Source of the DNA: a virus
IMG/VR virus record: IMGVR_UViG_3300033148_009064
Location: 1 to 29,867 of that record
Strand: one strand, 5' to 3'
Length of the DNA stretch: 29,867 nt
Shown here: in pieces, positions 3 through 22,267 of the stretch
How positions within the stretch are numbered: the first letter of the stretch is position 1
Layout: each line of letters begins with the position of its first letter
Program-made: the position numbers and the translations under genes
Notes under the pieces: generated by a model
Databases searched by the model: none
What the model saw: the letters and a program-made list of their open reading frames with translations, nothing else
What the model was told of the DNA's origin: nothing

Positions 3-113
3 AGAGACATATCGGGGTGTGATTGGTCTGTTTATTGCCAAAACAATAATTGTGATGGTCGAGCTGTGGGGAATGTCGAAAACTTGGAAGAATTAAAAAA
101 GTGGTTTAGATAA
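3..113 (+). CDS. C-terminal end of a small Lar-like zinc-ribbon protein (partial)
   Basis: The frame is open from the window edge and ends in TAA at 111-113. The 36 visible residues contain W-x2-YC-x3-NC followed by an acidic stretch and end in LKKWFR. This is the layout of the second half of small Lar-type restriction-alleviation proteins: a second Cys pair, then an amphipathic helix ending near WNRR. The stop codon lies inside the ATAAC that opens the first structured intergenic element, so gene and element look like one unit. The start and first Cys pair are outside the window. Membership of the Lar family is inferred from the pattern alone. Confidence 0.5.
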   Translation, partial: RDISGCDWSVYCQNNNCDGRAVGNVENLEELKKWFR

Positions 114-167
114 CAGCCCCGTGGTTTGCCGAGGAACGAGGTCACAACCAACGGCAACGGTTATGAC
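110..167. repeat. attC-like structured intergenic element 1
   Basis: The outer arms are ATAAC (110-114) and GTTAT (160-164), which are complementary. The inner arms are CCGTGGTT and AACCAACGG, which pair fully if one A is left unpaired. The centre carries GAGGAACGAGG, also seen in element 2. Two nested complementary arm pairs with an extrahelical base are the architecture of integron attC sites (R''-L''-loop-L'-R'). It begins on the stop codon of the preceding gene. In canonical attC sites the extra base lies in the 5' inner arm; here it lies in the 3' arm. Confidence 0.6.
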
Positions 168-188
168 TAAACATTAAAAGGAGCTAAG

Positions 189-425
189 ATGTCAAATAAA
201 AAAGACGAGAAAAATAGCAAGAGCTATGGTGTTGAATTGTTACATTGTCCGTTTTGTGATGATTCGTGTGGTGTTGAGCTACTTAACCCCGAAGAAACAA
301 ATGGACACCACTGGTGGGTTTGTTGTAGCGGTTGTGCTTGTAAAAAAGATGGGCATACTAAAGAGCAAGCAGTAAATACTTGGAATCGCAGAGATGGTGA
401 ATTATTAATCAAACAGGATTTCTAA
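189..425 (+). CDS. Lar-like restriction alleviation / zinc-ribbon protein
   Basis: A 78-aa protein with CPFC at residues 20-23, a second Cys cluster (C45, C46, C49, C51) and the C-terminal signature AVNTWNRR (61-68). This order matches the small phage and prophage Lar family; Lar of the Rac prophage modulates type I restriction of unmodified DNA. The RBS AAAAGGAG (176-183) sits 5 bases upstream of the ATG. It is flanked by structured elements 1 (110-167) and 2 (432-495), so it forms a discrete one-gene cassette. The family assignment is fairly firm from the Cys/WNRR pattern. The anti-restriction role here is inferred, since many Lar-like proteins are untested. Confidence 0.75.
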   Translation: MSNKKDEKNSKSYGVELLHCPFCDDSCGVELLNPEETNGHHWWVCCSGCACKKDGHTKEQAVNTWNRRDGELLIKQDF

Positions 426-431
426 GCACAT

Positions 432-495
432 ATAACAGCCTAAGTGGTATGCAACGAGGAACGAGGCAGTCATTACCAACTGCCTCGGTTATGGC
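432..495. repeat. attC-like structured intergenic element 2
   Basis: ATAAC (432-436) and GTTAT (488-492) form the outer arms. AAGTGGTA pairs with TACCAACT if one A is bulged out, exactly as in element 1. The central GAGGAACGAGG is shared with element 1. It starts seven bases after the stop codon of the Lar-like gene and ends just before the RBS of the next gene. Confidence 0.6.
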
Positions 496-512
496 AAACT
501 AGGGAGAATGCG

Positions 513-713
513 ATGGGGCTAGCAAAAATATTTAGAAAAACAAATAGGTACTCACACGGGCTTGTGAATCAAAGGTGGAAAGCAAGAATGAATTTGCGGA
601 ATGGCACCATTGAGTATTTTAGTAGTGAGAAGTGGTTTAAATTACCGTATCGTTTCAGATACTTGTATGTTGAAAACAAAGAAAAGGGAGGAAGATGTGA
701 CAGCAACAGTTGA
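513..713 (+). CDS. small basic hypothetical protein
   Basis: A 66-aa basic protein of no recognised family, rich in Lys, Arg and aromatic residues, with no Cys pair until the last few residues. The ATG at 513 is chosen because AGGGAG (501-506) precedes it by 6 bases; upstream codons in the frame run back through structured element 2 and are unlikely to be translated. It overlaps the next gene by 17 bases, suggesting translational coupling. Both genes lie between elements 2 and 3, so they would make a two-gene cassette. Confidence 0.5.
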   Translation: MGLAKIFRKTNRYSHGLVNQRWKARMNLRNGTIEYFSSEKWFKLPYRFRYLYVENKEKGGRCDSNS

Positions 714-909
714 GAAATTGCTTTACAACGAGTGGTGTAAACCTAATATGTACACAGAAGGCGATAATCGTAAACCATACAGTGGCTATGTCGCTCAAAA
801 AATGAATTGTGGATGGCTAATTCTTTGCGAGGTTTGGCAAGATATGAATACTGGCGAGATTATGAGAAGACCAATTAAAGAAATAACAATATCAGAAATT
901 GAACTTTAG
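697..909 (+). CDS. small hypothetical protein
   Basis: A 70-aa product with a GTG start at 697, preceded by GGGAGG (686-691). A longer reading from 601 would overlap the upstream gene almost completely and has no RBS. The product begins VTATVEKLL and has an aromatic-rich middle and two Cys (NCGWLILC), then a charged C-terminus; no family is recognised. The TAG stop at 907-909 directly abuts the ATAAC of structured element 3, the same gene-element junction seen at the other cassettes. Confidence 0.55.
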   Translation: MTATVEKLLYNEWCKPNMYTEGDNRKPYSGYVAQKMNCGWLILCEVWQDMNTGEIMRRPIKEITISEIEL

Positions 910-977
910 ATAACAACTACGTGGTTTGTCGTAGTGAGGAACGAACGTAGATCATAACCAACGTAAACGGTTATAAC
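910..977. repeat. attC-like structured intergenic element 3
   Basis: Outer arms are ATAAC (910-914) and GTTAT (970-974). Inner arms ACGTGGTT and AACCAACGT pair with one A bulged. An alternative local hairpin ACTACG/CGTAGT can form in the 5' half. The centre has GAGGAACGAACG, close to elements 1 and 2. The 3' end runs into a 25-bp stretch (968-992) that recurs exactly at 7044-7068. Confidence 0.6.
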
Positions 978-996
978 CTTTTCAGAAAGAACGAGA

Positions 997-1578
997 ATGA
1001 AATTAGACTGGCATCCAGATAGTGAAAAGATTCAAAGTAGTGATGGATACAAAGCGGGATTTAAGACGGGTAGAAACTGGAAGCATAATTATGTTCCGGG
1101 TGGTCCATCTGTTTCTCACGATGACGAAGCATCAAAGGAAAACAAGCGGGTTTGGCTTATTGGGTTTCACGAAGGGTTGAACAAAAACAGATACAAGAAC
1201 ACTCCAGATGTAAAAGAGCTTCTTGATAAGTTGAGCGGTGTTATAAAAAATGAAAAGTCAATCTGTTCTGTGTGCGGTCATCAATGGATAACAGGTAACA
1301 CAGGAACTCATAGTTGTACAGACACATTGTTGAAAACTATCAAAGAACAACAACTACGCATTAAAGACCTTGAAGAGCGTGGAAGTATTCGTTTTATACT
1401 TGATGGAGAGCATAAAACACAGCGATACAGTTTTGACCACATACTTGAATTTGATGAAGAGTATGTTATTCAAAATGAAGAAGAGTGTGATTGTGATTTA
1501 AACGAATCTGTCAATCATTGTGAAGGCGATTGTAATAAATTTGAAAACAGTAAAATTACTGGATATGAGTTAGTGTAA
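997..1578 (+). CDS. hypothetical Cys-rich protein with RMF-like N-terminus
   Basis: A 193-aa protein. Residues 17-65 show GYKAGFKTG ... WLIGFHEG, a Gly-spaced pattern that resembles ribosome modulation factor-type sequences; this is only a resemblance. A middle CSVCGHQW motif looks like half a zinc ribbon. The C-terminal third is acidic with several Cys (CDCDL ... HCEGDCNKFE). The motif CNKFE also occurs in the gene at 7073, which shares the same 25-bp leader, suggesting common cassette ancestry. The ATG is preceded by a weak purine stretch (AGAACGAGA). Function unknown. Confidence 0.65.
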   Translation: MKLDWHPDSEKIQSSDGYKAGFKTGRNWKHNYVPGGPSVSHDDEASKENKRVWLIGFHEGLNKNRYKNTPDVKELLDKLSGVIKNEKSICSVCGHQWITGNTGTHSCTDTLLKTIKEQQLRIKDLEERGSIRFILDGEHKTQRYSFDHILEFDEEYVIQNEEECDCDLNESVNHCEGDCNKFENSKITGYELV

Positions 1579-1595
1579 AAAATGCACCATCTCAT

Positions 1596-1646
1596 ATAAC
1601 AGGGCGCGTGGTGGGCGCTACGCGTCATCACCAACGCTGCTGTTAT
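1596..1646. repeat. attC-like structured intergenic element 4
   Basis: The outer arms extend to 7 bp (ATAACAG and CTGTTAT). Inner arms GCGTGGTG and CACCAACGC pair with one A bulged, as in elements 1-3. A further local hairpin GGCGCGT/ACGCGTC (one G-U pair) can form in the centre. This is the most compact copy. Its 3' arm is also the left arm of a separate 15-bp inverted repeat. Confidence 0.6.
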
Positions 1647-1688
1647 TATAGGACCTACAAAAAAAGGTACTCTATAATAACAGCAGTG
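1635..1688. repeat. long inverted repeat / stem-loop
   Basis: A perfect 15-bp inverted repeat (1637-1651 with 1672-1686), extended outward by a G-U and a C-G pair and inward by ACC/GGT around an A-rich loop. The arms contain GTTATTATAG and its complement. It lies 43 bases upstream of the start of the 50-aa gene at 1731. It could be a transcript-stabilising or terminating hairpin (no T-tract follows) or an inverted partial copy of the element 4 3' arm. Confidence 0.7.
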
Positions 1689-1730
1689 TCAACCTATTTT
1701 CTTTCAACTGCACAAAAAGAGGTGAAAACT

Positions 1731-1883
1731 ATGAGTAAATGTAAGAAATGTGGATATGAACACCACTCATCCGAACAGGATTACACTGCATTGAGCAATG
1801 AGGTTAATAATGGTATTTGTGATTGTTGTAGAATATTGAATAATTACAAAGAGTCATATACTATATTGCAAACCGAAAGTTAA
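1731..1883 (+). CDS. small Cys-rich zinc-binding-like protein
   Basis: A 50-aa protein starting MSKCKKCGYEHH, with CKKC at residues 4-7 and ICDCC at about 32, giving two Cys pairs that could hold one zinc. The ATG at 1731 has AGAGGTG (1718-1724) at good distance; the frame reads on upstream through the inverted repeat, but that part is not protein-like. A membrane-protein gene follows 12 bases later. No named family is recognised. Confidence 0.6.
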   Translation: MSKCKKCGYEHHSSEQDYTALSNEVNNGICDCCRILNNYKESYTILQTES

Positions 1884-1895
1884 AAGGGGAGATCG

Positions 1896-2069
1896 ATGTT
1901 TGTTTTGTTTTTGTTGTTGATACTTGTTGCGGTGATCCTGTTGATCGTCAATTATTTGATGAGTAAAAAATCATTTGAAAATATAACTGAACTTTTAAAG
2001 ATCGAACATCATTGGAAAGTGCATGGTAATTGTGATCGGTTTCCAGTGGTTCAAAACGAATATGGTTAG
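1896..2069 (+). CDS. small single-pass membrane protein
   Basis: A 57-aa reading frame from ATG 1896 to TAG 2067-2069, preceded by AAAAGGGGAG. Residues 2-20 are almost entirely Leu, Val, Ile and Phe (MFVLFLLLILVAVILLIV), a clear membrane segment. The remaining ~35 residues are polar and charged and contain HHWKVHGNC. It is the last + strand gene before the strong bidirectional terminator at 2103. Small phage membrane proteins of this size can be superinfection or lysis accessory factors, but nothing in the sequence decides the role. Confidence 0.55.
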   Translation: MFVLFLLLILVAVILLIVNYLMSKKSFENITELLKIEHHWKVHGNCDRFPVVQNEYG

Positions 2070-2102
2070 TTTTGAATTAATGTTTCATCGCTCTTAACGT
2101 TA

Positions 2103-2134
2103 AAAAAGGAGACCAGGGGTGTGGTCTCCTTTTT
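2103..2134. terminator. bidirectional rho-independent terminator
   Basis: A perfect 13-bp stem (AAAAAGGAGACCA and its complement at 2122-2134) with a 6-base loop. The A-run on one side and T-run on the other make it work in both directions. It sits exactly between the converging + strand small genes and the - strand block. Confidence 0.9.
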
Positions 2135-2135
2135 G

Positions 2136-2303
2136 TTATATCCCTTCATCAATGATAGTTTTTTCAAGATCTCGTTGAATATCAATCAACGCCTGTTTAT
2201 ATCCTGAATACCATTCACTATTTAGTTTTTCGAGTTCATCAGTTGGTTCCAGGTGGTACAAGTTTGTAATATCTTCTTTTAGTTTTTCAACGCCTTTTTT
2301 CAT
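2136..2303 (-). CDS. small hypothetical protein
   Basis: A 55-aa minus-strand frame, start at 2303, stop at 2136-2138 beside the terminator. It begins MKKGVEKLKEDITNLYHLEP and is strongly helical and charged, with no Cys. An AAGGAG motif lies 6 bases upstream of the ATG on the minus strand. It is the last gene of the leftward block. No family is recognised, but the RBS and position make it a credible gene. Confidence 0.6.
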   Translation of the reverse strand: MKKGVEKLKEDITNLYHLEPTDELEKLNSEWYSGYKQALIDIQRDLEKTIIDEGI

Positions 2304-2312
2304 TTGATCTCC

Positions 2313-2759
2313 TTAATCAATGATACACCACTCTTTGAGAAGTTCCGCTTCTCTTTCGCACTCTGCAATCATTAGTGGAACAACAAATTGTCTTTTGAGA
2401 TAATGCCGGATATCTGTTTTTGGTACTTTCCATTGAGACAGTTTCCAATCACCGCGCGTTCTCATTCGTTTCCAAACCCATTCACCTTCAGGGATATCTT
2501 GAACATCGAACCGGATGATGTTTATGTGAACTTGTGGAACTACTGTTTCGATATGGAATCCACTGAGAAATGTGAAGTGATCATTTGCAACACAGATCAA
2601 CCGCTCTTGTTTTTCAGACCAATCATCCACCATAGGAATTGATACGTCGCATTCCCATCCACGAAATGAACGGTAATTCTGATTAATGAACTCGGTGTTC
2701 AGCATTCCGTTTTCAAACATATTTTCGATTTTACATATTGCGTTGTATTTTTTAGTCAT
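2313..2759 (-). CDS. hypothetical protein
   Basis: A 148-aa protein, start at 2759, whose ATG directly follows the stop codon of the gene upstream (zero spacing), indicating translational coupling. The sequence is mixed alpha/beta with a Trp-rich middle (GEWVWKRMRTRGDWKLSQWKVP) and ends CEREAELLKEWCIID. No catalytic motif or known domain is recognised. It belongs to the seven-gene leftward transcription unit. Confidence 0.65.
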   Translation of the reverse strand: MTKKYNAICKIENMFENGMLNTEFINQNYRSFRGWECDVSIPMVDDWSEKQERLICVANDHFTFLSGFHIETVVPQVHINIIRFDVQDIPEGEWVWKRMRTRGDWKLSQWKVPKTDIRHYLKRQFVVPLMIAECEREAELLKEWCIID

Positions 2760-3149
2760 TTAAAGAGTCCCTGCTTTCTTTGCCCAGTATAGTGTTTCTC
2801 TCTTTTGATTTTGTACATCAGTTTTGAGTTGTTCGATTTCCTTTTCAAGATCTGCAACTTTATTCAATCTATTTGATATCCATTCCGCATTTTCTGGAGT
2901 AGGGCAGTAGCAAATAGCATTTTCGGTTGGAAATGGTCTCACTAGGTGACTTTCTGACTCGTTAGCTCTCTCTTTTTGCTCTTCAGTCCATCTTTGATAT
3001 TGTGGTTGATCAACAAAGTACCCTTGGCTCCAAGTTGTTACATTTTTAAGTTTTATGGTATAAACTGCTCTCCCTTGTAACTTTGTAGTAAGATCTCTGA
3101 TTATATCTTTGAGCTTTCTCTTTTGATTCCTGCCGAATCTTTTTGACAT
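2760..3149 (-). CDS. hypothetical protein with C-terminal coiled coil
   Basis: A 129-aa protein, start at 3149, with AAGGAG 8 bases upstream on the minus strand. The N-terminus is very basic (MSKRFGRNQKRKLKDIIRDL). The C-terminal ~40 residues (NRLNKVADLEKEIEQLKTD...) have heptad-like leucines typical of a coiled coil. The middle segment, with aromatic and Pro residues, is unfamiliar. A nucleic-acid-binding or adaptor role would fit the basic end, but this is only a guess. Confidence 0.6.
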   Translation of the reverse strand: MSKRFGRNQKRKLKDIIRDLTTKLQGRAVYTIKLKNVTTWSQGYFVDQPQYQRWTEEQKERANESESHLVRPFPTENAICYCPTPENAEWISNRLNKVADLEKEIEQLKTDVQNQKRETLYWAKKAGTL

Positions 3150-3150
3150 T

Positions 3151-3441
3151 TTATCTACTCCTTATCGTCTTTATTAAATCGTGAATACGCTTATCTTCAC
3201 ACTCTTTATTTTTACAGTCGGAAGCCGGTTTAAATCCGTGTTCACAGCCGTTGCCGATTAGCCCGCCTGTAATTTCATAAGAAGAGTCTAAACGATCTAT
3301 CAATTCAATCATAGAATTAATGTATTCGATAAAATCATTAGCCTCTTCTCTGTAGTCTCCAATAGTAAGACCGTCAAATCCGTGGCCTTTTACTACAGGA
3401 TGAGCAGTATCACCATAATGTTTTACTATAAAATTTTCCAT
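3151..3441 (-). CDS. hypothetical protein
   Basis: A 96-aa acidic protein. The start at 3441 (MENFIVKHYGD) is preferred to the longer frame beginning at 3474 because GAAGGAAG lies 7 bases upstream of it. A C-terminal segment has HGFKPASDCKNKECEDKR, a Cys/His cluster (also C at NGCEHG) that could bind metal. The RBS-start region is nearly identical to that of the neighbouring gene starting at 3795 (both read TATTGAAATG). Confidence 0.6.
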   Translation of the reverse strand: MENFIVKHYGDTAHPVVKGHGFDGLTIGDYREEANDFIEYINSMIELIDRLDSSYEITGGLIGNGCEHGFKPASDCKNKECEDKRIHDLIKTIRSR

Positions 3442-3495
3442 TTCAATACTTCCTTCTGATTCGATGTAGAACACGAGTCAATTTAATTTGTTACT

Positions 3496-3795
3496 CTATT
3501 TGTAAGACTGTGTTAATATCTCAACAGGGATACCCATACTTTCTGATATGTTTTGAACAAATCTGTTGCGGAATTCATCAAAACTTTCTGCTTCTTTTTT
3601 TCTTCTATCATACTCTGCTTGAGTCTTTGCGGGTTTGATTTTCTTTGTTGGCAGAAGTGGTTCAATACCTGCTTTCTTACACTTCAGCTTATTTGTTATA
3701 GTGAATTTCTTCTTGAGTTTTCGCGGAACTCTCTTCCCGTATCTTTGAGCCATTTGAAATCTGAATAGTTCATTCATATCTAATTGTTTTCTCAT
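3496..3795 (-). CDS. hypothetical basic protein
   Basis: A 99-aa protein rich in Lys/Arg (QRYGKRVPRKLKKKFTITNKLKCKK), followed by a helical acidic stretch and ending SMGIPVEILTQSYK. The start at 3795 has AAAGGAAATATTGAA directly upstream and avoids the overlap with the preceding gene that the longer frame (3843) would need. No named family is recognised; the basic N-terminal half suggests nucleic-acid contact. Confidence 0.55.
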   Translation of the reverse strand: MRKQLDMNELFRFQMAQRYGKRVPRKLKKKFTITNKLKCKKAGIEPLLPTKKIKPAKTQAEYDRRKKEAESFDEFRNRFVQNISESMGIPVEILTQSYK

Positions 3796-3827
3796 TTCAA
3801 TATTTCCTTTTTGGTAATTATCAACTT

Positions 3828-4226
3828 CTACTTCGAACCGCAACTCTTAGCAAACGCCTTAAAATAATCAGATTCAATCGCTCTTCCTTCAATTTCAGCG
3901 GCAACAGCGGCGTTTGTCATTTCTCGTTGAGTGTGAAATTCGGTGTCGATTCTTCCCTTGAAAATAGGATCGTCGATCACTCTGAAATCGACACAGTTGA
4001 TTGCGGTGATAGTGTAGAGATTTTCAGAAACAAATCCCCCCTGAATCATCGATGTAGCATCGATAAACCCTTTGCAGCTTCTTTGTGATGAACAAAACGA
4101 ACAGCTTCGGATACAGCTTCTGCTTGACTCCTCAATAAGCCTGGTTATGACTCCGGAGAGCTCTTTTTTGGGATCTCCTCCCAATTGTTCAATCTTCTTG
4201 ATCATTGTCATCAATTCAGTGTACAT
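3828..4226 (-). CDS. hypothetical protein with Cys cluster
   Basis: A 132-aa protein whose ATG at 4226 overlaps the stop of the upstream gene by one base (TAATG). After a ~35-residue helical region there is a Cys cluster at residues 38, 42, 45 and 51 (C-x3-C-x2-C-x5-C), enough for a zinc or Fe-S site. The rest is mixed alpha/beta with AAVAAEIEGRAIE near the end. The C-x3-C-x2-C spacing equals the radical-SAM motif, but the protein is far too short for that fold. Function unknown. Confidence 0.6.
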   Translation of the reverse strand: MYTELMTMIKKIEQLGGDPKKELSGVITRLIEESSRSCIRSCSFCSSQRSCKGFIDATSMIQGGFVSENLYTITAINCVDFRVIDDPIFKGRIDTEFHTQREMTNAAVAAEIEGRAIESDYFKAFAKSCGSK

Positions 4227-4627
4227 TATCGCACCTCACTATATGTTGTCTGGTTTCCTGTTCCGTGCTGTAAATTTGAACTGGTATGTCCTTTACCGCA
4301 CCATCCGTTGCAATCGCCGTTTTCATCTGTTTCCGGTTCAGGTGAACAGGTACAGGTGATCCCCTTTTTTTCTTGCATTGTTGTTGGTTCGAAATTGCAG
4401 GAACCGCACGTTTTGATAGCTTGTTTCTTTGGTTTCTCCTCGAACCCTGTTGTGGTTATTTCGATCTGTTCCCGTGGAACAATCTGTTTTACTCCGTTTT
4501 CATCAACAATAGTGAACGTTCCCGCGTTGATATGTTGTGCTTCAATGCGATATTCCCCTTGTATCACAATCATACCAACGCGCGTTTTTCGATTGAACTT
4601 GATTTTGTTAAACGTATTTTTATTCAT
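4226..4627 (-). CDS. hypothetical Cys-rich protein
   Basis: A 133-aa protein, first gene of the leftward block, with a strong AGGAGG RBS four bases before the ATG at 4627. Residues ~17-65 look like a small beta-barrel (VGMIVIQGEYRIEAQHIN ... VPREQIEI). The C-terminal half has KTCGSCNF ... TCTCSPEP ... CNGWCGKG, a set of Cys pairs ending in the C-x3-C/Trp pattern seen in small phage zinc-binding proteins. No family name can be given with confidence. Confidence 0.65.
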   Translation of the reverse strand: MNKNTFNKIKFNRKTRVGMIVIQGEYRIEAQHINAGTFTIVDENGVKQIVPREQIEITTTGFEEKPKKQAIKTCGSCNFEPTTMQEKKGITCTCSPEPETDENGDCNGWCGKGHTSSNLQHGTGNQTTYSEVR

Positions 4628-4646
4628 AAAACCTCCTGTTGATAAT

Positions 4647-4676
4647 AATATACAAGAAAACAGATAATTAATGCAA
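4647..4676 (-). promoter_or_regulatory. sigma70-type promoter for the leftward block
   Basis: On the minus strand, TTGCAT (4676-4671) and TATATT (4652-4647) are separated by 18 bases. It lies 20 bases upstream of the start of the first leftward gene (4627), in the only divergent gap of this part of the window. Confidence 0.5.
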
Positions 4677-4693
4677 CTTTTATTATGAAACAG

Positions 4694-4703
4694 TGTATAT
4701 TAC
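4694..4703 (+). promoter_or_regulatory. possible rightward -10 region
   Basis: TGTATATTAC (4694-4703) contains a good -10 hexamer (TATATT), about 45 bases upstream of the 4745 start. No convincing -35 is visible. The same ten bases recur at 27493-27502 upstream of another small gene. Confidence 0.3.
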
Positions 4704-4744
4704 TAGTAACGAAATTGTTGTTGTTTAGCTTTTTGGAGAATAAA

Positions 4745-4933
4745 ATGAATCAAAAGAAAAAGATTAAGCGTGAATGTATTAGTTGTGATGATGGTGTTCG
4801 TGTTGAAACTGATCAGGTTCGAAGACCTGCGTATTTTTCATCATCAGTAGCAAAGTCAACATTGTTGGTGAAATTTTGTTGTTCAACCTGTGGTCACGTT
4901 TCGGCAATGCCAAAATCAATGGCGTTAAATTAA
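4745..4933 (+). CDS. small zinc-ribbon-like protein
   Basis: A 62-aa protein, MNQKKKIKRECISCDDG..., with CISC and CCSTCG forming two Cys pairs about 32 residues apart, the layout of a zinc ribbon. The start at 4745 is chosen because TTTGGAGAA (GGAG 4735-4738) precedes it; the longer frame from 4685 would begin inside the promoter region. First gene of the second rightward set. Specific function unknown. Confidence 0.6.
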   Translation: MNQKKKIKRECISCDDGVRVETDQVRRPAYFSSSVAKSTLLVKFCCSTCGHVSAMPKSMALN

Positions 4934-4943
4934 GGAGTCATTT

Positions 4944-5243
4944 ATGGCCTGTGGTAAGCAAGATATGAGCAGTAGTTTAGAGATGGTTGATCATTTCAAA
5001 GAGTCTGAAATTGAATTTATTCCTGTTCCGGTTCAATCATCGGCGCATCGATTGTTTTTGCTTGATCAAGTTTCTGAAGCAACTGCTCAGATTGAAAATG
5101 GAACCTTTGTTGTTTCTGAATCTGATACTAGTGAAAGATGTAAATGTTGTGAATCTGAAAAATCAATTCGCGTGAGAAATTATGATATTCAAGGGTTTGT
5201 GTTTTGTCCCTATTGTGGCAGAAAATTAACGAGGAGTGAATAG
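4944..5243 (+). CDS. small zinc-ribbon protein
   Basis: A 99-aa protein. The N-terminal ~60 residues are acidic and unremarkable. The C-terminal part has RCKCCESEKSIRV ... FVFCPYCGRKL, a CxxC ... CPYCGRKL zinc ribbon of the kind common in small phage accessory proteins. AAGGAG lies 7 bases before the ATG. Its stop precedes the lipoprotein ATG by one base. Role not known; a nucleic-acid or protein contact through the ribbon is an inference from fold class. Confidence 0.65.
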   Translation: MACGKQDMSSSLEMVDHFKESEIEFIPVPVQSSAHRLFLLDQVSEATAQIENGTFVVSESDTSERCKCCESEKSIRVRNYDIQGFVFCPYCGRKLTRSE

Positions 5244-5244
5244 T

Positions 5245-5535
5245 ATGAAAAGTGTAACGGTGTTGGCTTTTGTTGCTTTTGTTTTAGTTTCCTGTTCTCC
5301 GGTCGTTACTGGAACGGTGATGGGAAAATATGAACGTGAACCTCATATTGAACGATGGGTTGGGGTTTCGTACTCCGGAGGTGTTGGAGGCGCTCAGTAT
5401 AACGAACAGTATATTCGCCGCCGATGGTATCTGGAAATTGAACAGGTTGTTGATGGTGTAAAATCGTATAAGCAGGTTGAAGTTGATTCATTAACATTTG
5501 AAAAAGCCGGTCGTGGTGATTTTGGGGAGTATTAA
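5245..5535 (+). CDS. phage-encoded small lipoprotein
   Basis: A 96-aa protein with a textbook lipoprotein signal: MK, a hydrophobic core and the lipobox LVSC with the acylated Cys at residue 17. The mature part starts SPVVTGTVMGKYE and contains a Tyr/Gly-rich stretch and RRRWYLEIEQVVDGVKSY. Similar small V-x-GK-Y lipoproteins occur in phages and prophages. The start at 5245 is favoured by GGAG at proper spacing over the in-frame ATG at 5236. Membrane location is well supported; a superinfection-exclusion role would fit but is speculative. Confidence 0.7.
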   Translation: MKSVTVLAFVAFVLVSCSPVVTGTVMGKYEREPHIERWVGVSYSGGVGGAQYNEQYIRRRWYLEIEQVVDGVKSYKQVEVDSLTFEKAGRGDFGEY

Positions 5536-5536
5536 A

Positions 5537-5710
5537 GTGTTGTTAAAAAACGCCCAAAAAAAGTTCAATGAATTATTTGATGCTTGTGAAAAAACAGAAC
5601 ATAATATTGTTAACCCGCAAGGTAAAATTTACACAGCTTTTTGTAGTAAGTGTGGTTGTGAAATTGCATTAGATGATGATTGTCGAGCAGTTAGGGAAGT
5701 GTACAGATAA
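5537..5710 (+). CDS. small Cys-rich protein, cassette-associated
   Basis: A 57-aa product starting with GTG at 5537, eight bases after GGGGAG (5524-5529). The alternative longer frame from 5498 would overlap the lipoprotein gene. It contains FCSKCGCEIALDDDC, a CxxCxC plus C metal-site-like cluster, after a helical N-terminus. The TAA stop (5708-5710) lies inside the ATAAC that opens structured element 5, the same gene-to-element arrangement as in the first 1.6 kb. Confidence 0.55.
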   Translation: MLLKNAQKKFNELFDACEKTEHNIVNPQGKIYTAFCSKCGCEIALDDDCRAVREVYR

Positions 5711-5764
5711 CGCCTGCGTCGTTTGCGACGACGTAGGAGGAAGTCAAATGAACGCGCTGGTTAT
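5707..5764. repeat. attC-like structured intergenic element 5
   Basis: Outer arms ATAAC (5707-5711) and GTTAT (5760-5764). GCGTCGTTTG can pair with CAAATGAACGC with one A bulged and one G-U pair. The 5' half also folds alone into a 10-bp hairpin (5713-5737, one G-U). GGAGG plus ATG (5748) inside the element could encode a 9-residue peptide, MNALVMISA. Confidence 0.55.
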
Positions 5765-5790
5765 GATCAGTGCTTGAAAGCGAGAGTAGT

Positions 5791-6120
5791 ATGGGTAGAA
5801 AATGTACACAGTGTTTGGGTGGTGGCGAAGTAACAGATTGGGCTGACTATAGCGTGAAATACACCTGCCCCACTTGTAACGGCAAAGGTAGTCTGCCACA
5901 AGTAACCGTTCATAAAAGTGAAGAAGTTAAAGAAATGGGCATTGAGGAGGTAAAGAAACTTATAATGTCAAGGGTTGAGGGGCTACTCTATGGGACTAGG
6001 TTTGGTCAGTTTCGCGCAAAGGGTAGTGGTGACAACATAGAAATAACAATTGACAAGCTAAAAGATGACAGTCAGGTAACTATAAACGAATCAGCAACTT
6101 TTACTATCAAATTCTTATAA
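5791..6120 (+). CDS. DnaJ-type zinc-finger-like small protein
   Basis: A 109-aa protein beginning MGRKCTQCLGGGEVTD and continuing YTCPTCNGKGSL: two CxxCxGxG motifs, the unit of the DnaJ central zinc-finger domain (DnaJ has four). There is no J domain. The remainder is a charged alpha/beta tail (EEVKEMGIEEVKKLIMSR ... NIEITIDKLKDD). The ATG at 5791 is preferred to the GTG at 5770, which lies just at the end of element 5. The stop TAA (6118-6120) sits inside the ATAAC of element 6, so this gene is bounded by an element on each side. Confidence 0.65.
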   Translation: MGRKCTQCLGGGEVTDWADYSVKYTCPTCNGKGSLPQVTVHKSEEVKEMGIEEVKKLIMSRVEGLLYGTRFGQFRAKGSGDNIEITIDKLKDDSQVTINESATFTIKFL

Positions 6121-6172
6121 CAACCAAAGTGGTGGGTTGAGGTATGACACCATCACTGACTGCTTTGGTTAT
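6117..6172. repeat. attC-like structured intergenic element 6
   Basis: Outer arms ATAAC...CCAAAG and CTTTGGTTAT pair over 10 bp with a small bulge. Inner arms TGGTG (6130-6134) and CACCA (6148-6152) pair. It lacks the GAGGAACGAGG core (GAGGTATGAC instead) and is the most diverged copy. It begins on the stop codon of the upstream gene and ends just before the RBS of the YopX-like gene. Confidence 0.5.
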
Positions 6173-6188: not shown

Positions 6189-6566
6189 ATGAAATACAGA
6201 ATTTATTCAACAATTGATAAAAATTACGTTGACAATACTAGAAATCTCGTACTTGATGCGAGTGGTAAGATACGAGCACTTGGTGGTATTACAATGAACC
6301 CAGAGCGCGGAATGATTGCAGAAATGTGTTTAGGGATAAAGGATTGCGGGGAAGCCGATGTGTTTCAAGGTGATGTTTTTCATATTGAAGATGAATTTTA
6401 CGGAAGAATTGTTTTTAAACAAGGCAATTTCTATGTGGAAGAGTTTGATTTCCAAACACCTGATCTTGTAGTTGAAACAGAAAGTGTAGATAATTATACG
6501 TGGGATCAAGTTGCAATACTCGGAAATATACATTGTAATTCCCGCGACTTTTCGCAACACTTTTAA
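6189..6566 (+). CDS. YopX-like phage protein
   Basis: A 125-aa protein with the hallmarks of the phage YopX family: MKYRIYSTIDKNYV at the N-terminus, the central VFQGDVFHIEDEFYGRIVFKQGNFYVEEF (about residues 58-86) and the terminal VAILGNIHCNSRDF, matching the usual iGNIyenpel ending. The ATG at 6189 has AAAGGTAG upstream; the frame from 6144 would start inside element 6. Members occur widely in phages and prophages, with unknown biochemical role. Assignment is by motif reading only. Confidence 0.8.
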   Translation: MKYRIYSTIDKNYVDNTRNLVLDASGKIRALGGITMNPERGMIAEMCLGIKDCGEADVFQGDVFHIEDEFYGRIVFKQGNFYVEEFDFQTPDLVVETESVDNYTWDQVAILGNIHCNSRDFSQHF

Positions 6567-7043: not shown

Positions 7044-7068
7044 CGGTTATAACCTTTTCAGAAAGAAC
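7044..7068 (+). repeat. 25-bp exact copy of the element 3 end and leader
   Basis: These 25 bases, starting CGGTTATAACC and ending GAAAGAAC, are identical to 968-992. At both places they are followed four bases later by the ATG of a Cys-rich gene (997 and 7073). Here the 5' half of the structured element is missing, as if a cassette joined at the GTT of the right arm to unrelated sequence. Confidence 0.75.
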
Positions 7069-7072
7069 TATA

Positions 7073-7474
7073 ATGGGAAGTGAAAACTACGAAGAAGGAA
7101 AATGTAACAGGTGTTTAGGAAACTCAGTTGATCTATGCCGCTATTTAGATGATTGGGTTTCAAACGAGCCTTGTAATGCAAAAAACAATTACGCAAATTT
7201 TGAAGAGTATGACGGTAGATATCCAAAATACTGTGAACTAGATTATGACCATAGCAAAATGGAGTGGGAAAGTTGCAACAAATTTGAAACTACTGTTTAC
7301 AATGGGGAGACAAAGATTAGAAACTGTTGCCCTGTATGTGGTTCAGAATTTGAAATTGAAGATATTCAAAATGTTGAAACATTTGATTGTAAAAGTTGTG
7401 GTGACTCGATGGGAAAAGGTTTGACCACGAATGAGTTGATAACTGATATCGATGATTATGCTTGGTGTTTGTAG
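7073..7474 (+). CDS. Cys-rich zinc-ribbon protein
   Basis: A 133-aa protein with at least a dozen Cys. It begins with CNRCLGNSVDLC, followed by further Cys in an aromatic, acidic middle (PKYCELDYDHSKMEWESCNKFE) and a C-terminal CCPVCGSEFEI ... FDCKSCG zinc ribbon. The motif CNKFE is shared with the protein at 997-1578, which has the same 25-bp leader. The ATG at 7073 lies four bases past that leader; no strong SD is seen, only AGAAAGAAC. Function unknown; several bound metal ions are likely. Confidence 0.65.
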   Translation: MGSENYEEGKCNRCLGNSVDLCRYLDDWVSNEPCNAKNNYANFEEYDGRYPKYCELDYDHSKMEWESCNKFETTVYNGETKIRNCCPVCGSEFEIEDIQNVETFDCKSCGDSMGKGLTTNELITDIDDYAWCL

Positions 7475-8315: not shown

Positions 8316-8330
8316 TACAATAACAAAAAT

Positions 8331-8350
8331 GATGTTTCACGTGAAACATC
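8331..8350. promoter_or_regulatory. parS-like centromere site 1
   Basis: GATGTTTCACGTGAAACATC is a perfect 20-bp palindrome containing TGTTTCACGTGAAACA, the bacterial chromosomal parS consensus bound by ParB. It lies in the short gap between two genes. Confidence 0.85.
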
Positions 8351-8371
8351 AAATAAAAGAAAGGTTGTTGA

Positions 8372-8658: not shown

Positions 8659-8676
8659 ATGTTTCACGTGAAACAT
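8659..8676. promoter_or_regulatory. parS-like centromere site 2
   Basis: ATGTTTCACGTGAAACAT is a perfect 18-bp palindrome with the full 16-bp parS consensus, 328 bp after site 1. Its first three bases look like a start codon (giving MFHVKHH), a familiar annotation artefact of parS sites. Confidence 0.85.
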
Positions 8677-8724: not shown

Positions 8725-9072
8725 ATGAATTATCTTCTGGAAAAGATACCGGTGAACGAACAGTTTCATCGATCTGAACCGATGTCGTATTCTCAAGCGT
8801 TTGAAAAAGCGAATCCTGTTTCGTTCAATTCCCGTTCTTTGGAAACGGCTCTTGTTTCATTTGCTTGGTATGTATATCCTAATCCTGGTGATGAACTTGA
8901 ACCGCACAAAAATCGCGTTTCTGATTTCATAAAAGAGTGGGGTGATCGTGCAAAAGATGTTTCACGTGAAACAATTCTCACCTGTTTCCTTCATTTTTTC
9001 TGCAACCAAAACTCTTTTTATATCAGTGAAGTAATACGACTTTCGAAAACTTCAAAAAAACTTTCAGAATAA
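8725..9072 (+). CDS. hypothetical protein carrying an internal parS
   Basis: A 115-aa protein starting MNYLLEKIPVNEQFH. It is mostly helical, with ETALVSFAWYVYPNPGDE in the middle and KDVSRETILTCFLHFFC later; no family is recognised. DVSRET is the translation of an embedded parS palindrome (8958-8973). The ATG is 8 bases after GTGAGG, which is the 3' arm of a terminator hairpin, so expression should depend on that hairpin being open. It is the last gene before the main structural promoter. Lambda-type genomes carry terminase genes at this position, but nothing terminase-like is visible in it. Confidence 0.6.
   Translation: MNYLLEKIPVNEQFHRSEPMSYSQAFEKANPVSFNSRSLETALVSFAWYVYPNPGDELEPHKNRVSDFIKEWGDRAKDVSRETILTCFLHFFCNQNSFYISEVIRLSKTSKKLSE
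8958..8973. promoter_or_regulatory. parS-like centromere site 3 (inside a gene)
   Basis: TGTTTCACGTGAAACA matches the parS consensus at all 16 positions, 299 bp after site 2, and is read in the gene as codons for V-S-R-E-T. Confidence 0.8.
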
Positions 9073-9368: not shown

Positions 9369-10855
9369 AAACTCTCAATAATGGTATTGTAATGATGACC
9401 GGAAACGGTGCTGGGTACGATGGTTCCAAAACGGGCCACGAACTCGACAATTGGCGCACACAGCTTTCAGATCCTAATGATTTTATTACAAATACTTATG
9501 GTGAGCTTTCTTCGCGAAATGCTACACTGTACAATACAGCGGCCTATGCCCGCGCTGCGATACGAAAACCACTCAGCTACTCAATCGGTGATGGCCTGTT
9601 TTTTCGGTCTCTCCCCGATGCGAAATTTTTGGGCATTGATCGTGAAGAGATGGTTGAGTGGTCTCAAAAATTCACATCCCTATTGCATTATGATAAATTA
9701 GAAATGAACTACTATGAGAAGCAATCGCTTCTCTGTGCTGAAGCATCGATCACCGGTGATTCGCTTCTCTATTTTATCCGTGAAGATAACGGATATGATT
9801 TTGATCTCGTTGCAACTGGTGGGCATACTATCGATTGGAAAAACACTGATCCGTCAAAAAATATCGGTCTTGGAATTCAAACGGATGAATTACAACGTCG
9901 TACTGGTTTTTACGTTCCCGGTCAAGATTCTGTTATTCCGTTTATGCTTGATGGTGGTGAAAACAGTATTGGTTTTCAGAATGCGATTCAGGTGTTTCTT
10001 CAAAAAGAGAGGACTGGTCAACTTCGTGGATACGGTGTAAATAATTCAATGATTGCTCTCTTGAAAAATATGGATTCCGTTTGGGATGCAACAATTCAGC
10101 GTATGGTTCTTGAATCTATTATGCTTGGTTTTTCAAAAGCAACAGAAACAAATGTTCCTGCTCAAGCCCGGAATATGGCTAAAAATGTTAAAGCGGTTCA
10201 GAATAAAGTTCAAGAAAGTAGTGAATCTGGTAACGCACTTCAAAAAATTGGTGAGGGTGCTCAACCTGGTGAATTCTACAATCTCAAAAATGAAGAGAGT
10301 ATTGAGTTTACAAAACTTGAAACGCCTTCAAATAATTTCGGAAACGCGAACGAGTGGGCCATACGAAACGTTGCAATGGCTCGCGGTGTTTCTCCTGAGT
10401 TTTTGAAAACAGAATATGGTGGGTCGTTTACTGCTCATAAAGGGGCGTTGAATGATACGTTCCAGACAATTAAAAATGAACGTGGTTCGTTTGTGAGAAA
10501 TACTGATTCTAAAGTGAACCTTGAACTTCTCAAGGGGTATATACTTTCCGGTGAACTCACTGCACCGCCAGCGTTTTGGGAAAATTCAAAACGTGGTGCT
10601 CGAGTTCGTAACGCATTGTTAAAAGGAAAAACACTTGGTCCTGTTCCTGGGCATATCAATCCACTTCAGGAAGCGAAAGCTGATAAGCTGAAAGTTGATG
10701 AACGGTTTATTTTGCGTTCTGATGTACAAGTAAAAGATGGTAGTTTTGATGGTGAAGCGTTCGATGCTCAATGGCTTGAAGAAGATAGTCGATGGGGTAC
10801 GTTGACATCAGAGCAACAAACTAAAGAGTTCATAAAAGCAGAGGAAAACAAATAA
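9365..10855 (+). CDS. portal protein (lambda gpB-like)
   Basis: A 496-aa protein. Start GTG 9365 is chosen because it overlaps the W stop (GTGA) and has GGGGGCG upstream; the frame itself is open further back. Features of the lambda portal family: NWRTQLSDPNDFI and RNATLYNTAAYARAAIRKPL near the N-terminus, GDSLLYFIREDNGYDFDLV in the core, then RGYGVNNSMIALLKNMDSVWDATIQRMVLESIMLGFSKAT and VAMARGVSPEFLKTEYGGSFTAHKGALNDTFQ toward the C-terminus. It forms the dodecameric ring at the capsid vertex through which DNA enters. Size is close to lambda gpB (533 aa). Followed by the protease gene with a TAATG overlap. Confidence 0.9.
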   Translation: MKTLNNGIVMMTGNGAGYDGSKTGHELDNWRTQLSDPNDFITNTYGELSSRNATLYNTAAYARAAIRKPLSYSIGDGLFFRSLPDAKFLGIDREEMVEWSQKFTSLLHYDKLEMNYYEKQSLLCAEASITGDSLLYFIREDNGYDFDLVATGGHTIDWKNTDPSKNIGLGIQTDELQRRTGFYVPGQDSVIPFMLDGGENSIGFQNAIQVFLQKERTGQLRGYGVNNSMIALLKNMDSVWDATIQRMVLESIMLGFSKATETNVPAQARNMAKNVKAVQNKVQESSESGNALQKIGEGAQPGEFYNLKNEESIEFTKLETPSNNFGNANEWAIRNVAMARGVSPEFLKTEYGGSFTAHKGALNDTFQTIKNERGSFVRNTDSKVNLELLKGYILSGELTAPPAFWENSKRGARVRNALLKGKTLGPVPGHINPLQEAKADKLKVDERFILRSDVQVKDGSFDGEAFDAQWLEEDSRWGTLTSEQQTKEFIKAEENK

Positions 10856-13750: not shown

Positions 13751-14134
13751 ATGGCTACTAAAACAGAACTTGAAGCTCGTATTGTTGAACTTGAAACGCA
13801 GATTATTGATGGTGTTACTGATGAGAGTGTTCAATCTTTGGTTGAAGATCTCAAGGGTCGTACTGTTGCAGCTGAAGAAAAAGCTGTTTCTCTTGAAGGG
13901 GAGATTGTTTCTCTTGAAGGGGAGATTGTTTCTCTTGATGGGGAGATTGTTTCTCTTGAAGAAAAACTTGAAAAAGCTTTGAAAAAACCTTCAGTCAAAA
14001 AAGATGAAGATCCAAAGCCGGAATGTTTCGGTGAATACCCTGAATATCCTGAAGACGTGACGAAGAAATGTCGTGTCTGTAAGGACCACGCGGTGTGTAA
14101 AGTGTCCGGATCTCTTCCTGTAGAAGTTGAGTAA
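13751..14134 (+). CDS. coiled-coil protein with C-terminal Cys motif
   Basis: A 127-aa protein. Residues ~3-80 are an almost uninterrupted coiled coil; its middle consists of tandem heptads EGEIVSL encoded by a 21-bp DNA repeat (13886-13961). The C-terminal ~45 residues read PKPECFGEYPEYP ... KKCRVCKDHAVCK, a CFG...CxxC-x5-C motif seen in various phage proteins that may bind metal. It lies where lambda has FI, between capsid and head-tail joining genes. A DNA-packaging accessory role like FI is possible on position only. Confidence 0.65.
   Translation: MATKTELEARIVELETQIIDGVTDESVQSLVEDLKGRTVAAEEKAVSLEGEIVSLEGEIVSLDGEIVSLEEKLEKALKKPSVKKDEDPKPECFGEYPEYPEDVTKKCRVCKDHAVCKVSGSLPVEVE
13886..13961 (+). 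repeat. 21-bp in-frame tandem repeat
   Basis: Three full 21-bp units (13886-13906, 13907-13927, 13928-13948) and a 13-bp partial fourth. Units 1 and 2 are identical; unit 3 differs by one base (Glu to Asp). Each unit encodes one coiled-coil heptad, so length change would lengthen the coil without breaking the frame. Confidence 0.95.
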
Positions 14135-20471: not shown

Positions 20472-22267
20472 TGGACATTTCAATAAAGAACGCGCCGGTT
20501 CGATATCTTGTTGAACTTACCGGTCGCAATATTTGGGATCCACGTTTTGCGCTTTCTACATCATTCTCGAATCAAGTGGAATCCGGTGTTGTCTGTTATT
20601 TTGATACCGGTGTTCCTGAAGAGTTAACGTACTGGAAAATCTGGGGTGGTGGGTATAGTGATGTACCTACATCGACACGGTTACAGATTTATTTCGCTGG
20701 TTTTTTGTCGGTAGTAACTTCATTTGCGGCGCTCATTGAAAAAGAGCGTTCGTTTTGGGTTGATGGTTCTCGAATATACTGCCATATTGAACGATACCCG
20801 TGGCAGTATGCAAACGGTTCAACATCGGTTCGTGAGTCGTTGGGGTTCGCCACTGATGTTGTTGATTATCGAAAAAAGAGTGATGATACTATTTCCGGAG
20901 AACGGTATGAAGTTCGCTTAAAAGTTCCTACGAATATAACTCAAAAGATTCCGGATCCTTCCGGTGGAATTGTGTTCTCAAAAACGTTCTCACTCACTTT
21001 AGATAATCACGATGGGTTGTTTGATTCTGGTCTGTTCTTTAATACGCCTGTTATTCTGAAAAAATCATCGGTTGAATATCCTGAATACTCAGATTTTGTA
21101 ACGATTAAAACGGGGCTTTATGAAAACGGGTTTGTGAAGAAAACGAGTTTCAAAATTACGGTTGCTGATGTACTGAGAACTCTCACGAATCCGGTAAATG
21201 ATGTGATTACTCTTGATGAATATCCCGCATCAGGAGATTCAGCAGGGAAAAACATTCCTCTCGCCTGGGGAGTGATCACCGGTGCGCCGTTGATCAGTGT
21301 TGGAACGGATCAATATTTGTGTTGTGCTCCTGATTATCTCACATCGGTGGAAACTGTTTATGATACTAATGGAGATCCGATAGTACCATTTACAGTAACT
21401 GACGGTGTAATATCAACGGCTGTTGAAGCAAAGAGTGCTGATTTTACAGGTCGGGATAGTAACCGAATTGGTGACATTATCATTGATATTGTTTCGAATC
21501 GTGCTAATTTTCCGTTTGTTGAGGGAGTTTGGGACGTTACTGATGTCACTGGATATCTTGAATCTTCATTCCGCATTAATTATTTAGTGAGTTCCGGAAC
21601 GGTTCAGAAGTTGGTAAATGACGTTACCGCAAATGATACATCAGTGTTTTTTGTAAAGAACAATGGTTTGATGACGCTTCGCCGTTGGGGTGATCGATAT
21701 GAAACTCATACAATTCCTACCTATTTGAGAATTGTTTTGAAAAGTAAAACATACACCAGTTATGATGATTTCGCTTCATCGGTTGATGTTAATTATGGGT
21801 ATGATTACGGTTCGAAAGAGTATTTAAAAAATGAACTTGATGATAGTCGTGAACAGGAGATTGAACGGGAATATCTGAAAGTTCAGCGTCGAACGTTTGA
21901 TACAGACCTTGCTTCAAAAGATGATGCGGTTTCGTTCGCTTCTCGTTTGCTGGCTCGATGGTCTGTTCGTGCTGAAATCATTTCGGTTGATGAGGGTGTT
22001 GATACTTCATTGATAAATGTGTTTGATACTGTTATACAGCCGGCGGTGGTGAATGGGCGCGTGATGTCAACGTTTACTATGTGGGTTGCAACTCAGGTGA
22101 ATCCCGCTCAGGATATGCTTGTTCTCGAACAGTTGGGACGTGAAACAGGATATTCCGGTGATATGTATCAACCATCAAACGAAGATCAGGCTGGAATTAT
22201 GTATCAACCATCAATAGAAAATCAATCTGGTGTATTATATTCACCTTCAGAAGTGATAACGGGGTAA
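20471..22267 (+). CDS. large tail tip/hub structural protein
   Basis: A 598-aa protein; ATG 20471 overlaps the preceding stop by one base. It is mostly beta with long Asp/Gly/Ser stretches: an N-terminal WKIWGGGYSDVPTSTRLQIYFAG region, GVIFTAP-like turns around residues 260-290 and a helical segment RTFDTDLASKDDAVSFASRLLARWSVRAEI (~476-505). The C-terminus carries three imperfect copies of a short unit (MYQPSNEDQAG, MYQPSIENQSG, LYSPSEVITG), like tail-protein anchoring or fibre-docking repeats. It probably forms the tail tip hub or baseplate-like structure before the fibre gene. Confidence 0.6.
   Translation: MDISIKNAPVRYLVELTGRNIWDPRFALSTSFSNQVESGVVCYFDTGVPEELTYWKIWGGGYSDVPTSTRLQIYFAGFLSVVTSFAALIEKERSFWVDGSRIYCHIERYPWQYANGSTSVRESLGFATDVVDYRKKSDDTISGERYEVRLKVPTNITQKIPDPSGGIVFSKTFSLTLDNHDGLFDSGLFFNTPVILKKSSVEYPEYSDFVTIKTGLYENGFVKKTSFKITVADVLRTLTNPVNDVITLDEYPASGDSAGKNIPLAWGVITGAPLISVGTDQYLCCAPDYLTSVETVYDTNGDPIVPFTVTDGVISTAVEAKSADFTGRDSNRIGDIIIDIVSNRANFPFVEGVWDVTDVTGYLESSFRINYLVSSGTVQKLVNDVTANDTSVFFVKNNGLMTLRRWGDRYETHTIPTYLRIVLKSKTYTSYDDFASSVDVNYGYDYGSKEYLKNELDDSREQEIEREYLKVQRRTFDTDLASKDDAVSFASRLLARWSVRAEIISVDEGVDTSLINVFDTVIQPAVVNGRVMSTFTMWVATQVNPAQDMLVLEQLGRETGYSGDMYQPSNEDQAGIMYQPSIENQSGVLYSPSEVITG

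Follow-up and report, generated by a model that had tools for sequence, protein, structure and literature searches.

T4-type phages have stem-loops (PeSLs) between small hypervariable genes that undergo modular shuffling; these are early promoters with terminator stem-loops, and they act by homology. Bacteria swap antibiotic-resistance cassettes at folded DNA sites of the integron type (attC). Ordinary integrons keep each gene in the direction of its recombination site, so that the array promoter reads the gene. An ordinary attC site carries, on one side, two extrahelical bases with a spacing of about 6 nt (T-N6-G on the strand that recombines; PMC3053210). Qi et al. (2023, PMC9892861) have already described clusters of attC sites without an integrase (CALINs) in phages, including TJE1, P12002L, PH101 and others, and IntI1 recombines several of those sites in E. 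coli.

We analysed a 29,867-nt stretch of viral DNA (hereafter, the window) and a family of related elements in other phages. We suggest, with a probability of roughly 80%, that these elements are attC-type recombination sites acting as folded single strands, and that the window holds two integron-type cassette clusters without an integrase. Like the CALINs of Qi et al., the arrays have serial attC-type sites between small genes, no integrase, and methyltransferase cargo. With ordinary cassettes (R100 class 1 aadA1 attC and Vibrio repeats) they share R and L boxes, unpaired spacers and a variable loop, but no intI or attI was found and the outer bulge is A instead of G. They differ from TJE1-type CALINs in the ATAAC/GTTAT outer box and in the A bulge near the R box.

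Elements and cassettes in the window

All six elements reported by the initial annotation were confirmed. A structure model, R1, matched these six and no others in the window (E <= 4.5e-6, against 0.58 for the next best), and a parser of the whole architecture also found six, against 0.05 per shuffled window. The motif GTGGT..ACCAAC..GTTAT occurred four times, where shuffles gave an expectation of 0.00. In the following list element coordinates are arm limits, and scores are those of R1.

Element 1 (attC-like), 110-164, plus strand: ATAAC, 6 nt, GTGGTTTGC, loop, GTCACAACCAAC, 7 nt, GTTAT; 62.7 bits.
Cassette 1, 114-435, plus strand: from the C of ATAAC to the ATAA of element 2; gene 189-425.
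Element 2 (attC-like), 432-492, plus strand: 55.9 bits.
Cassette 2, 436-913, plus strand: two small overlapping reading frames, ending at 713 and 909.
Element 3 (attC-like), 910-974, plus strand: 55.7 bits; upstream TAG stop abuts ATAAC.
Cassette 3, 914-1599, plus strand: gene 997-1578, 193 aa.
Element 4, 1596-1646, plus strand: 44.8 bits; closes the first cluster.
Element 5, 5707-5764, plus strand: GTCGTTTGC/GTCAAATGAAC class; 45.9 bits; TAA stop of the preceding gene inside ATAAC.
Cassette 5, 5711-6120, plus strand: gene 5791-6120, zinc-binding CxxCxGxG type, DnaJ/anti-TRAP/Q-like.
Element 6, 6117-6172, plus strand: 40.5 bits; TAA stop inside ATAAC.
Relic, 7044-7075, plus strand: GTTAT box and leader without a complete hairpin; precedes gene 7073-7474.

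Between the two clusters (110-1646 and 5707-6172) lies mainly a block of genes with the opposite orientation. Element 4 ends in GTTATTAT, not GTTATGA, and the terminal elements of two other array phages (G003 and G002) are alike in this. Element 6 is followed by a leader and a YopX-like gene (6189-6566), and the relic is 94% identical to 968-999, the stretch after element 3.

Most of the anatomy first described for these elements stands: the ATAAC/GTTAT outer arms, a core, GAGGAACGA, shared by elements 1-3, a location 3' of small genes, and an ATAAC that contains a TAA stop in three cases (elements 1, 5 and 6) and abuts a stop in one. The TAA of element 1 closes a reading frame that runs in across the edge of the window. 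The inner arms had been said to pair only if one A is bulged, and this survives in part: the extra A in the 3' arm is present, but element 6 can also pair without the bulge (GTGGTGG/CCATCAC).

The gene of cassette 1 encodes a weak Lar-like restriction-alleviation protein (phrog_599, E 2.9e-6; Pfam Lar, E 0.008, under the cut-off), and that of cassette 3 is weakly related (33%) to a cassette gene of G003, which is likewise flanked by elements on both sides. Across 66 cassettes the median length was 438 bp; most had one ORF, which began about +25 after GTTAT and reached as far as the next ATAAC. Several cassette genes are DNA methyltransferases or possible anti-restriction proteins.

Folding and polarity of the element family

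A first pattern scan gave 20 contigs, and 13 were dropped as chance matches within genes. Across 13 IMG/VR records of uncultivated phages, which belong to several unrelated lineages, the family has 86 distinct members. It shows the attC design, namely outer boxes that pair with each other, imperfectly pairing and covarying inner boxes, unpaired spacers, a variable loop and two extrahelical bases on the same arm. The outer R boxes read AAC...GTT in nearly all 86 elements, a few having ATAAT or ATAGT. The L stem is paired in 98.4% of cells and covaries across elements, with a score of 0.475 (0.135 +/- 0.021 when shuffled) and 37 double-sided changes (8.4 when shuffled), a signal that is lost on sliding by 1-3 columns. 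The spacers, of about 4-8 nt, are unpaired (complementarity 2.70 vs 2.53 shuffled), and loop length varies. Two bulged bases lie about 6 nt apart on one arm (parser spacing 5-7), the outer being A in 78/81 elements and C in 3/81, and the second T in 36/60, C in 19/60 and A in 5/60.

These bulges lie on the arm opposite to that in ordinary attC in 81 of the 86 elements (the others being four ties and one mis-trimmed element), which makes the sites inverted with respect to the genes. The initial annotation had raised inversion as one of two possibilities, and it holds for essentially all copies; the ordinary orientation, with the extrahelical bases on the 5' half of the gene strand, is not what is found. 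The coding strand bears the features of the attC 'bottom strand', with a bulged T/C/A and a bulged A on the arm adjoining GTTAT. The recombined strand is the gene's antisense strand in ordinary integrons and would be the coding strand here. The same parser gave ordinary polarity for two controls, the R100 aadA1 attC and the phage TJE1 attC; TJE1 sites have C/A bulges on the gene strand's 5' arm, whereas polarity is reversed in every array here. Reversed polarity alters the subtype, not the site family. From it, the cut is predicted between ATAA and C, where the preceding gene has its stop codon.

The strand that folds is also the mRNA strand, and G-U pairs are present on it. A leader with a ribosome-binding site follows nearly every element, and the similarity of leaders tracks that of their elements (permutation p 0.01), while upstream sequence does not (p 0.72). 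Together with near-identical elements that have differing genes on both sides, this would suit hairpins that regulate at the mRNA level and travel with a leader, as in the T4 PeSLs, being shuffled by homologous or illegitimate recombination without any site-specific recombinase. We consider such an origin unlikely. The spacers are unconserved as well as unpaired, unlike RNA internal loops, no Rfam covariance model matched the elements, and a pair of bulges on one arm, about 6 nt from each other, is the hallmark of attC. The early promoter attached to the stem-loop in PeSLs is missing here, 57 aligned flanks having no conserved -35 or other upstream signal, and the junctions described below fall at a fixed 5-bp core rather than across the element. 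A part for ATAAC in a promoter was likewise rejected, as no upstream signal was found. A role in RNA is not excluded, because the folded strand is the mRNA strand too.

Cassette traffic between sister phages

Gene gain, loss and exchange exactly at the elements, put forward at the outset as a check on relatives, were found, and they occur at ATAAC edges. In a pair of phages with >99% identity, G1054 equals G007 plus a 432-bp cassette between two ATAAC, with nearly identical flanks. G004 and G1052 have five junctions at ATAAC edges, comprising swaps and one junction that joins an inverted segment, and no block end near any GTTAT edge. Junctions lie no more than about 5 nt from the ATAAC edge and are not spread over the 55-60 nt of shared element. 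These comparisons are based on metagenome assemblies. Exchange at the AA/C core of the folded strand is supported, if indirectly, by the junctions, and the exact cut base is inferred, ATAAC being only 5 bp long.

Sites of the same family with ordinary polarity, cut between G and TTAT and lying 3' of their own gene, would also be found directly after a stop codon, as in ordinary cassettes. Gene B, common to G003, G004 and G1050 (85-89% nucleotide identity), has its homology limits at GTTAT/leader and at ATAAC; between G003 and G004 the homology begins at GTTAT, and a bare GAGTTATG with no hairpin forms the end of one homologous block. Even so, ordinary polarity is scarcely tenable, since the bulges are on the wrong arm and, in the sister pairs, elements remain joined to the gene downstream of them and are separated from the gene upstream.

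Element 1 is 88-91% identical to elements of G005 and G004 with unrelated flanking genes. The elements at 33259 in G004 and 21688 in G1052 agree at 60/60 nt with unrelated genes on both sides, a context that a single ATAAC cut alone does not explain. Near-identical copies in unrelated contexts, including several CTTCG-class elements in G004 and one in G006, are what might be expected of a small mobile hairpin (REP/MITE or IS200/IS605-end type) with insertion points just downstream of stop codons, gene exchange being secondary. However, the difference between sisters is an element plus genes (the 432 bp) and not a lone element, no lone element was seen to have a clean empty counterpart site, a nested pair of stems with unpaired spacers does not resemble REP, and no Y1 transposase was noticed, albeit without a specific search. 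We therefore regard the mobile hairpin as very unlikely.

The source of the recombinase and the meaning of the arrays

No tyrosine recombinase is present in the window, which bears out the earlier remark that no integrase was visible. Nor was an integron integrase found in any array phage record; only ordinary phage integrases were found, in G003 and G1050, and they score far below the 265-bit integron-integrase cut-off. With no intI found, the definition of a complete integron (intI with attI) is not met. The array phages have no gene that all of them share, and thus there is no phage-borne recombinase candidate. In G011, true integron integrases are present, and their surroundings yielded no usable attC array. 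A search of 84,980 species genomes for the GTGGTTTG-class element gave only six chance matches, and therefore no chromosomal integron of this type is known. R1 found none in 1,040 genomes of three phyla, a weak result, as only 13-22 candidates were scored per genome, and a stricter pattern found none in 597 genomes of two phyla. Homology of structural genes indicated no single host, the portal protein as bait in viral_contigs retrieved no close relatives of the window phage, GenBank phages had no DNA match to it, and BLAST of the elements in phages and plasmids gave chance matches only.

For attC-type sites the enzyme is probably supplied in trans. We infer, without assay data on recombination by IntI, that an integron-type tyrosine recombinase from a host integron or a co-infecting element would bind the folded coding strand, cut between ATAA and C and join the end to another such site. 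The mobile unit would be the element, a leader of 20-30 nt with a ribosome-binding site, and the gene or genes, ending in the TAA of the next ATAAC; the site would lie upstream of the gene with which it moves, the reverse of ordinary cassettes. The phage may thereby gain and trade small accessory genes. More tentatively, it is possible that this is a phage-specific exchange system with reversed sites and a recombinase other than a known integron integrase, through which unrelated phages of one host group share an accessory pool that is partly anti-restriction. In this reading the site family, found in phages and in none of the bacterial chromosomes searched, has its polarity reversed so that each unit would finish at a stop codon of its own and carry a leader with it.

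The novelty first claimed for phage cassette arrays does not hold as such, since a 2023 paper (PMC9892861) had already described attC clusters in phages; a reversed-polarity variant with natural traffic remains. Cassette gain, swap and inversion are visible here between sister phages, unlike in the CALINs of Qi et al.: the earlier clusters are sites usable by an integron integrase in a laboratory assay, whereas here the traffic is visible in nature. It is this traffic, combined with uniformly reversed polarity, that is new. Uniform reversal is unexpected, because ordinary integrons align gene and site for reading by the array promoter; a phage operon evidently imposes another constraint on orientation. 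The arrays are also relevant to the question of how genes acquire attC sites, because near-identical sites adjoin unrelated genes in unrelated phages and because the same genes are associated with hairpins in one phage and free of them in another.

The six elements and their folded structure

All six hairpins that the initial annotation had described as an integron-like cassette array were found in the window, a virus record of 29,867 bases in IMG/VR, which also carries virion genes for a lambda-type portal, a head-maturation protease and a tape-measure protein, among others.

110-164 (+): attC-like element 1
189-425: cassette gene, weakly Lar-like restriction-alleviation protein
432-492 (+): attC-like element 2
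910-974 (+): attC-like element 3
1596-1646 (+): attC-like element 4
5707-5764 (+): attC-like element 5
6117-6172 (+): attC-like element 6

On the coding (+) strand the layout is ATAAC - 6/7 nt - GTnnnnnGY - variable loop - RnCnnnnn(n)[A]AC - 6/7 nt - GTTAT. The core motif was observed four times in the window against 0.00 in shuffled windows, a parser of the fuller architecture counted six against 0.05 per shuffled window, and the covariance model, run with filters off, returned precisely those six (E <= 4.5e-6; next best 0.58). A long inverted repeat at 1637-1693 (CTGCTGTTATTATAG...CTATAATAACAGCAG) overlaps the end of element 4 and may be a terminator closing the array. Terminal elements (window 1596-1646, and 8320-8371 and 17914-17961 of the related records L028 and L031) end in GTTATTAT, not GTTATGA, and downstream of these three lies phage backbone with no cassette gene.

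The proposed pairing was upheld by covariation in an alignment (A2) made without fitting to structure, where the eight L-stem pairs were formed in 98.4% of cells. Double-sided changes in this stem numbered 37 versus 8.4 in shuffles, and its covariation of 0.475 (shuffled, 0.135 +/- 0.021) collapsed when pairing partners were slid by 1-3 columns; the last L pair is C-G in 24/32 and T-A in 7/32, both sides changing in step. The G-T pairs are located on the coding strand, which is therefore the folded strand, and the spacers show no complementarity between them. Because it is the mRNA strand that folds, the elements may also act at the RNA level. Two bases bulge, both on the 3' arm: the outer is an A beside the AC that ends the arm (78/81), and the second, 5-7 nt away by the parser, is a T, C or A within the loop-proximal G-n-C. 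The recombined (bottom) strand of attC has two extrahelical bases on one side, with T-N6-G in the sites that the integron integrase IntI1 excises most easily (PMC3053210), and the double bulge of our elements is the signature of that strand.

Distribution and polarity

Pattern scans over 2.9 million viral contigs, together with a covariance model (R1) trained on nothing but the window and the seven relatives found first, yielded 86 distinct elements from 13 phage records, at most 13 of them in one phage (G003). R1 found 8-12 elements apiece in three records (G1050, G1052, G1056) where pattern scans had one or two. In these records the genes for terminase, portal, tape-measure and head proteins come from differing PHROG families, and the records represent several unrelated lineages; therefore, inheritance of the elements is not tied to a single type of phage genome. 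A further element-bearing phage contig, L072 (IMGVR_UViG_3300033388_007409), comes from the metagenome of another such record, G002. Intervals between successive elements (n=66) have a median of 438 bp, and most contain a single ORF that starts about 25 nt past GTTAT and ends at the next ATAAC. The preceding gene's TAA stop lies inside ATAAC at 40 of the 86 elements and abuts it at 13. Cassette genes include N6/N4 and C5 DNA methyltransferases, ASCH, HTH and several zinc-ribbon proteins; methyltransferases were noted in phage cassettes too by Qi et al. (PMC9892861). Elsewhere in the window, tandem 21-bp repeats at 13864-13968 encode EGEIVSL copies in a coiled-coil-like reading frame (13751-14134), and two 36-bp direct repeats at 22162-22233 (MYQPSNEDQAGI / MYQPSIENQSGV) end a tail-region reading frame.

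Ordinary cassettes have their bulges in the gene strand's 5' half, whereas ours lie in the 3' arm. A parser blind to the expected answer assigned ordinary polarity to two controls, the attC of R100 aadA1 (11.4 vs 1.5) and of phage TJE1 (11.2 vs 1.0), and reverse polarity to 81 of the 86 elements, with four ties, in support of the earlier suggestion that the sites are inverted relative to their genes; the one remaining element, of apparent ordinary polarity, is a mis-trimmed copy. If the elements work like attC, reversed polarity places the cut at coding-strand ATAA|C. The moving unit would then consist of the element, its leader and the gene, and would run up to the TAA within the next ATAAC.

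Exchange between sister phages

We compared sister phages against this predicted cut, all comparisons resting on metagenome assemblies. A search of relatives for gene gain or loss had been suggested as a check, and both gain and exchange were seen. Over 22 kb, G007 and G1054 share 99.6% identity, and the extra 432 bp of G1054, one element plus two small genes, sits precisely at the boundary of ...AGACGA with ATAACTTGACC of an element common to both. G004 and G1052 share main blocks at 93-99% identity and differ in their arrays; their homologous blocks end at ATAAC edges (G004 18671, 19701, 20094, 32549 and 34288), with no end near any GTTAT edge. At 18671/32549 the partner changes across ATAAC and the intervening segment is reversed in G1052, the outcome that inversion between a pair of sites in opposite orientation would give. 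One block ends at GAGTTATG without a hairpin. Plain homologous exchange could run through the 55-60 bp of a shared element, but the clustering of junctions at one 5-bp edge argues against it.

Gene B, a cassette gene present in three different phages at 85-89% nucleotide identity, has different elements on either side, and its homology begins near GTTAT or at the leader and extends to ATAAC. A two-gene unit found in G002 also lies in G005, there without hairpins (88% nucleotide identity), the homology stopping at the stop codon beside ATAAC. At 9990-10770 of G005 (also L032), three successive hairpin-less gene junctions have ATAACAGG directly or shortly past the stop codon, and these may be either remnants of cassettes or their forerunners. 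Over a set of 57 elements, the similarity of leaders tracked that of the elements (permutation p 0.01), and upstream-sequence similarity showed no such association (p 0.72). Some near-identical elements are flanked on both sides by unrelated genes (G004 33259 vs G1052 21688, 60/60 nt), so movement of element, leader and gene together needs a second process beside it, for instance homogenisation of sites or their attachment to new genes.

Enzyme, host and relation to known arrays

No integron integrase was found in the element-bearing phage records. The two tyrosine recombinases there (G003, G1050) are ordinary phage integrases, at 36 and 44 bits against an integron-integrase cut-off of 265 bits; since they adjoin or sit inside arrays, a role in cassette movement cannot be excluded. 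One element class was absent from 84,980 species genomes, and smaller genome surveys in four phyla gave no elements. That a recombinase acts in trans remains an inference, with no recombinase or host identified. The window also has three exact copies of TGTTTCACGTGAAACA (8333-8348, 8660-8675, 8958-8973), which is the consensus parS sequence to which ParB binds in bacteria; exact single copies occur at G003 3757, just before the first element, and at G1056 11419. The window phage may use or titrate host ParB.

Three features are seemingly unreported: a literature search without preprints and with few subscription papers found no earlier report of polarity reversed in every array, of an ATAAC/GTTAT, outer-A site family, or of cassette gain, swap and inversion junctions marking traffic between phages, which is not proof of absence. 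A 2023 study described integrase-less attC clusters in phages, virulent ones included, and showed recombination by IntI1 at five of the six sites that it assayed (PMC9892861). Therefore, we consider the present arrays a variant of an already known system.
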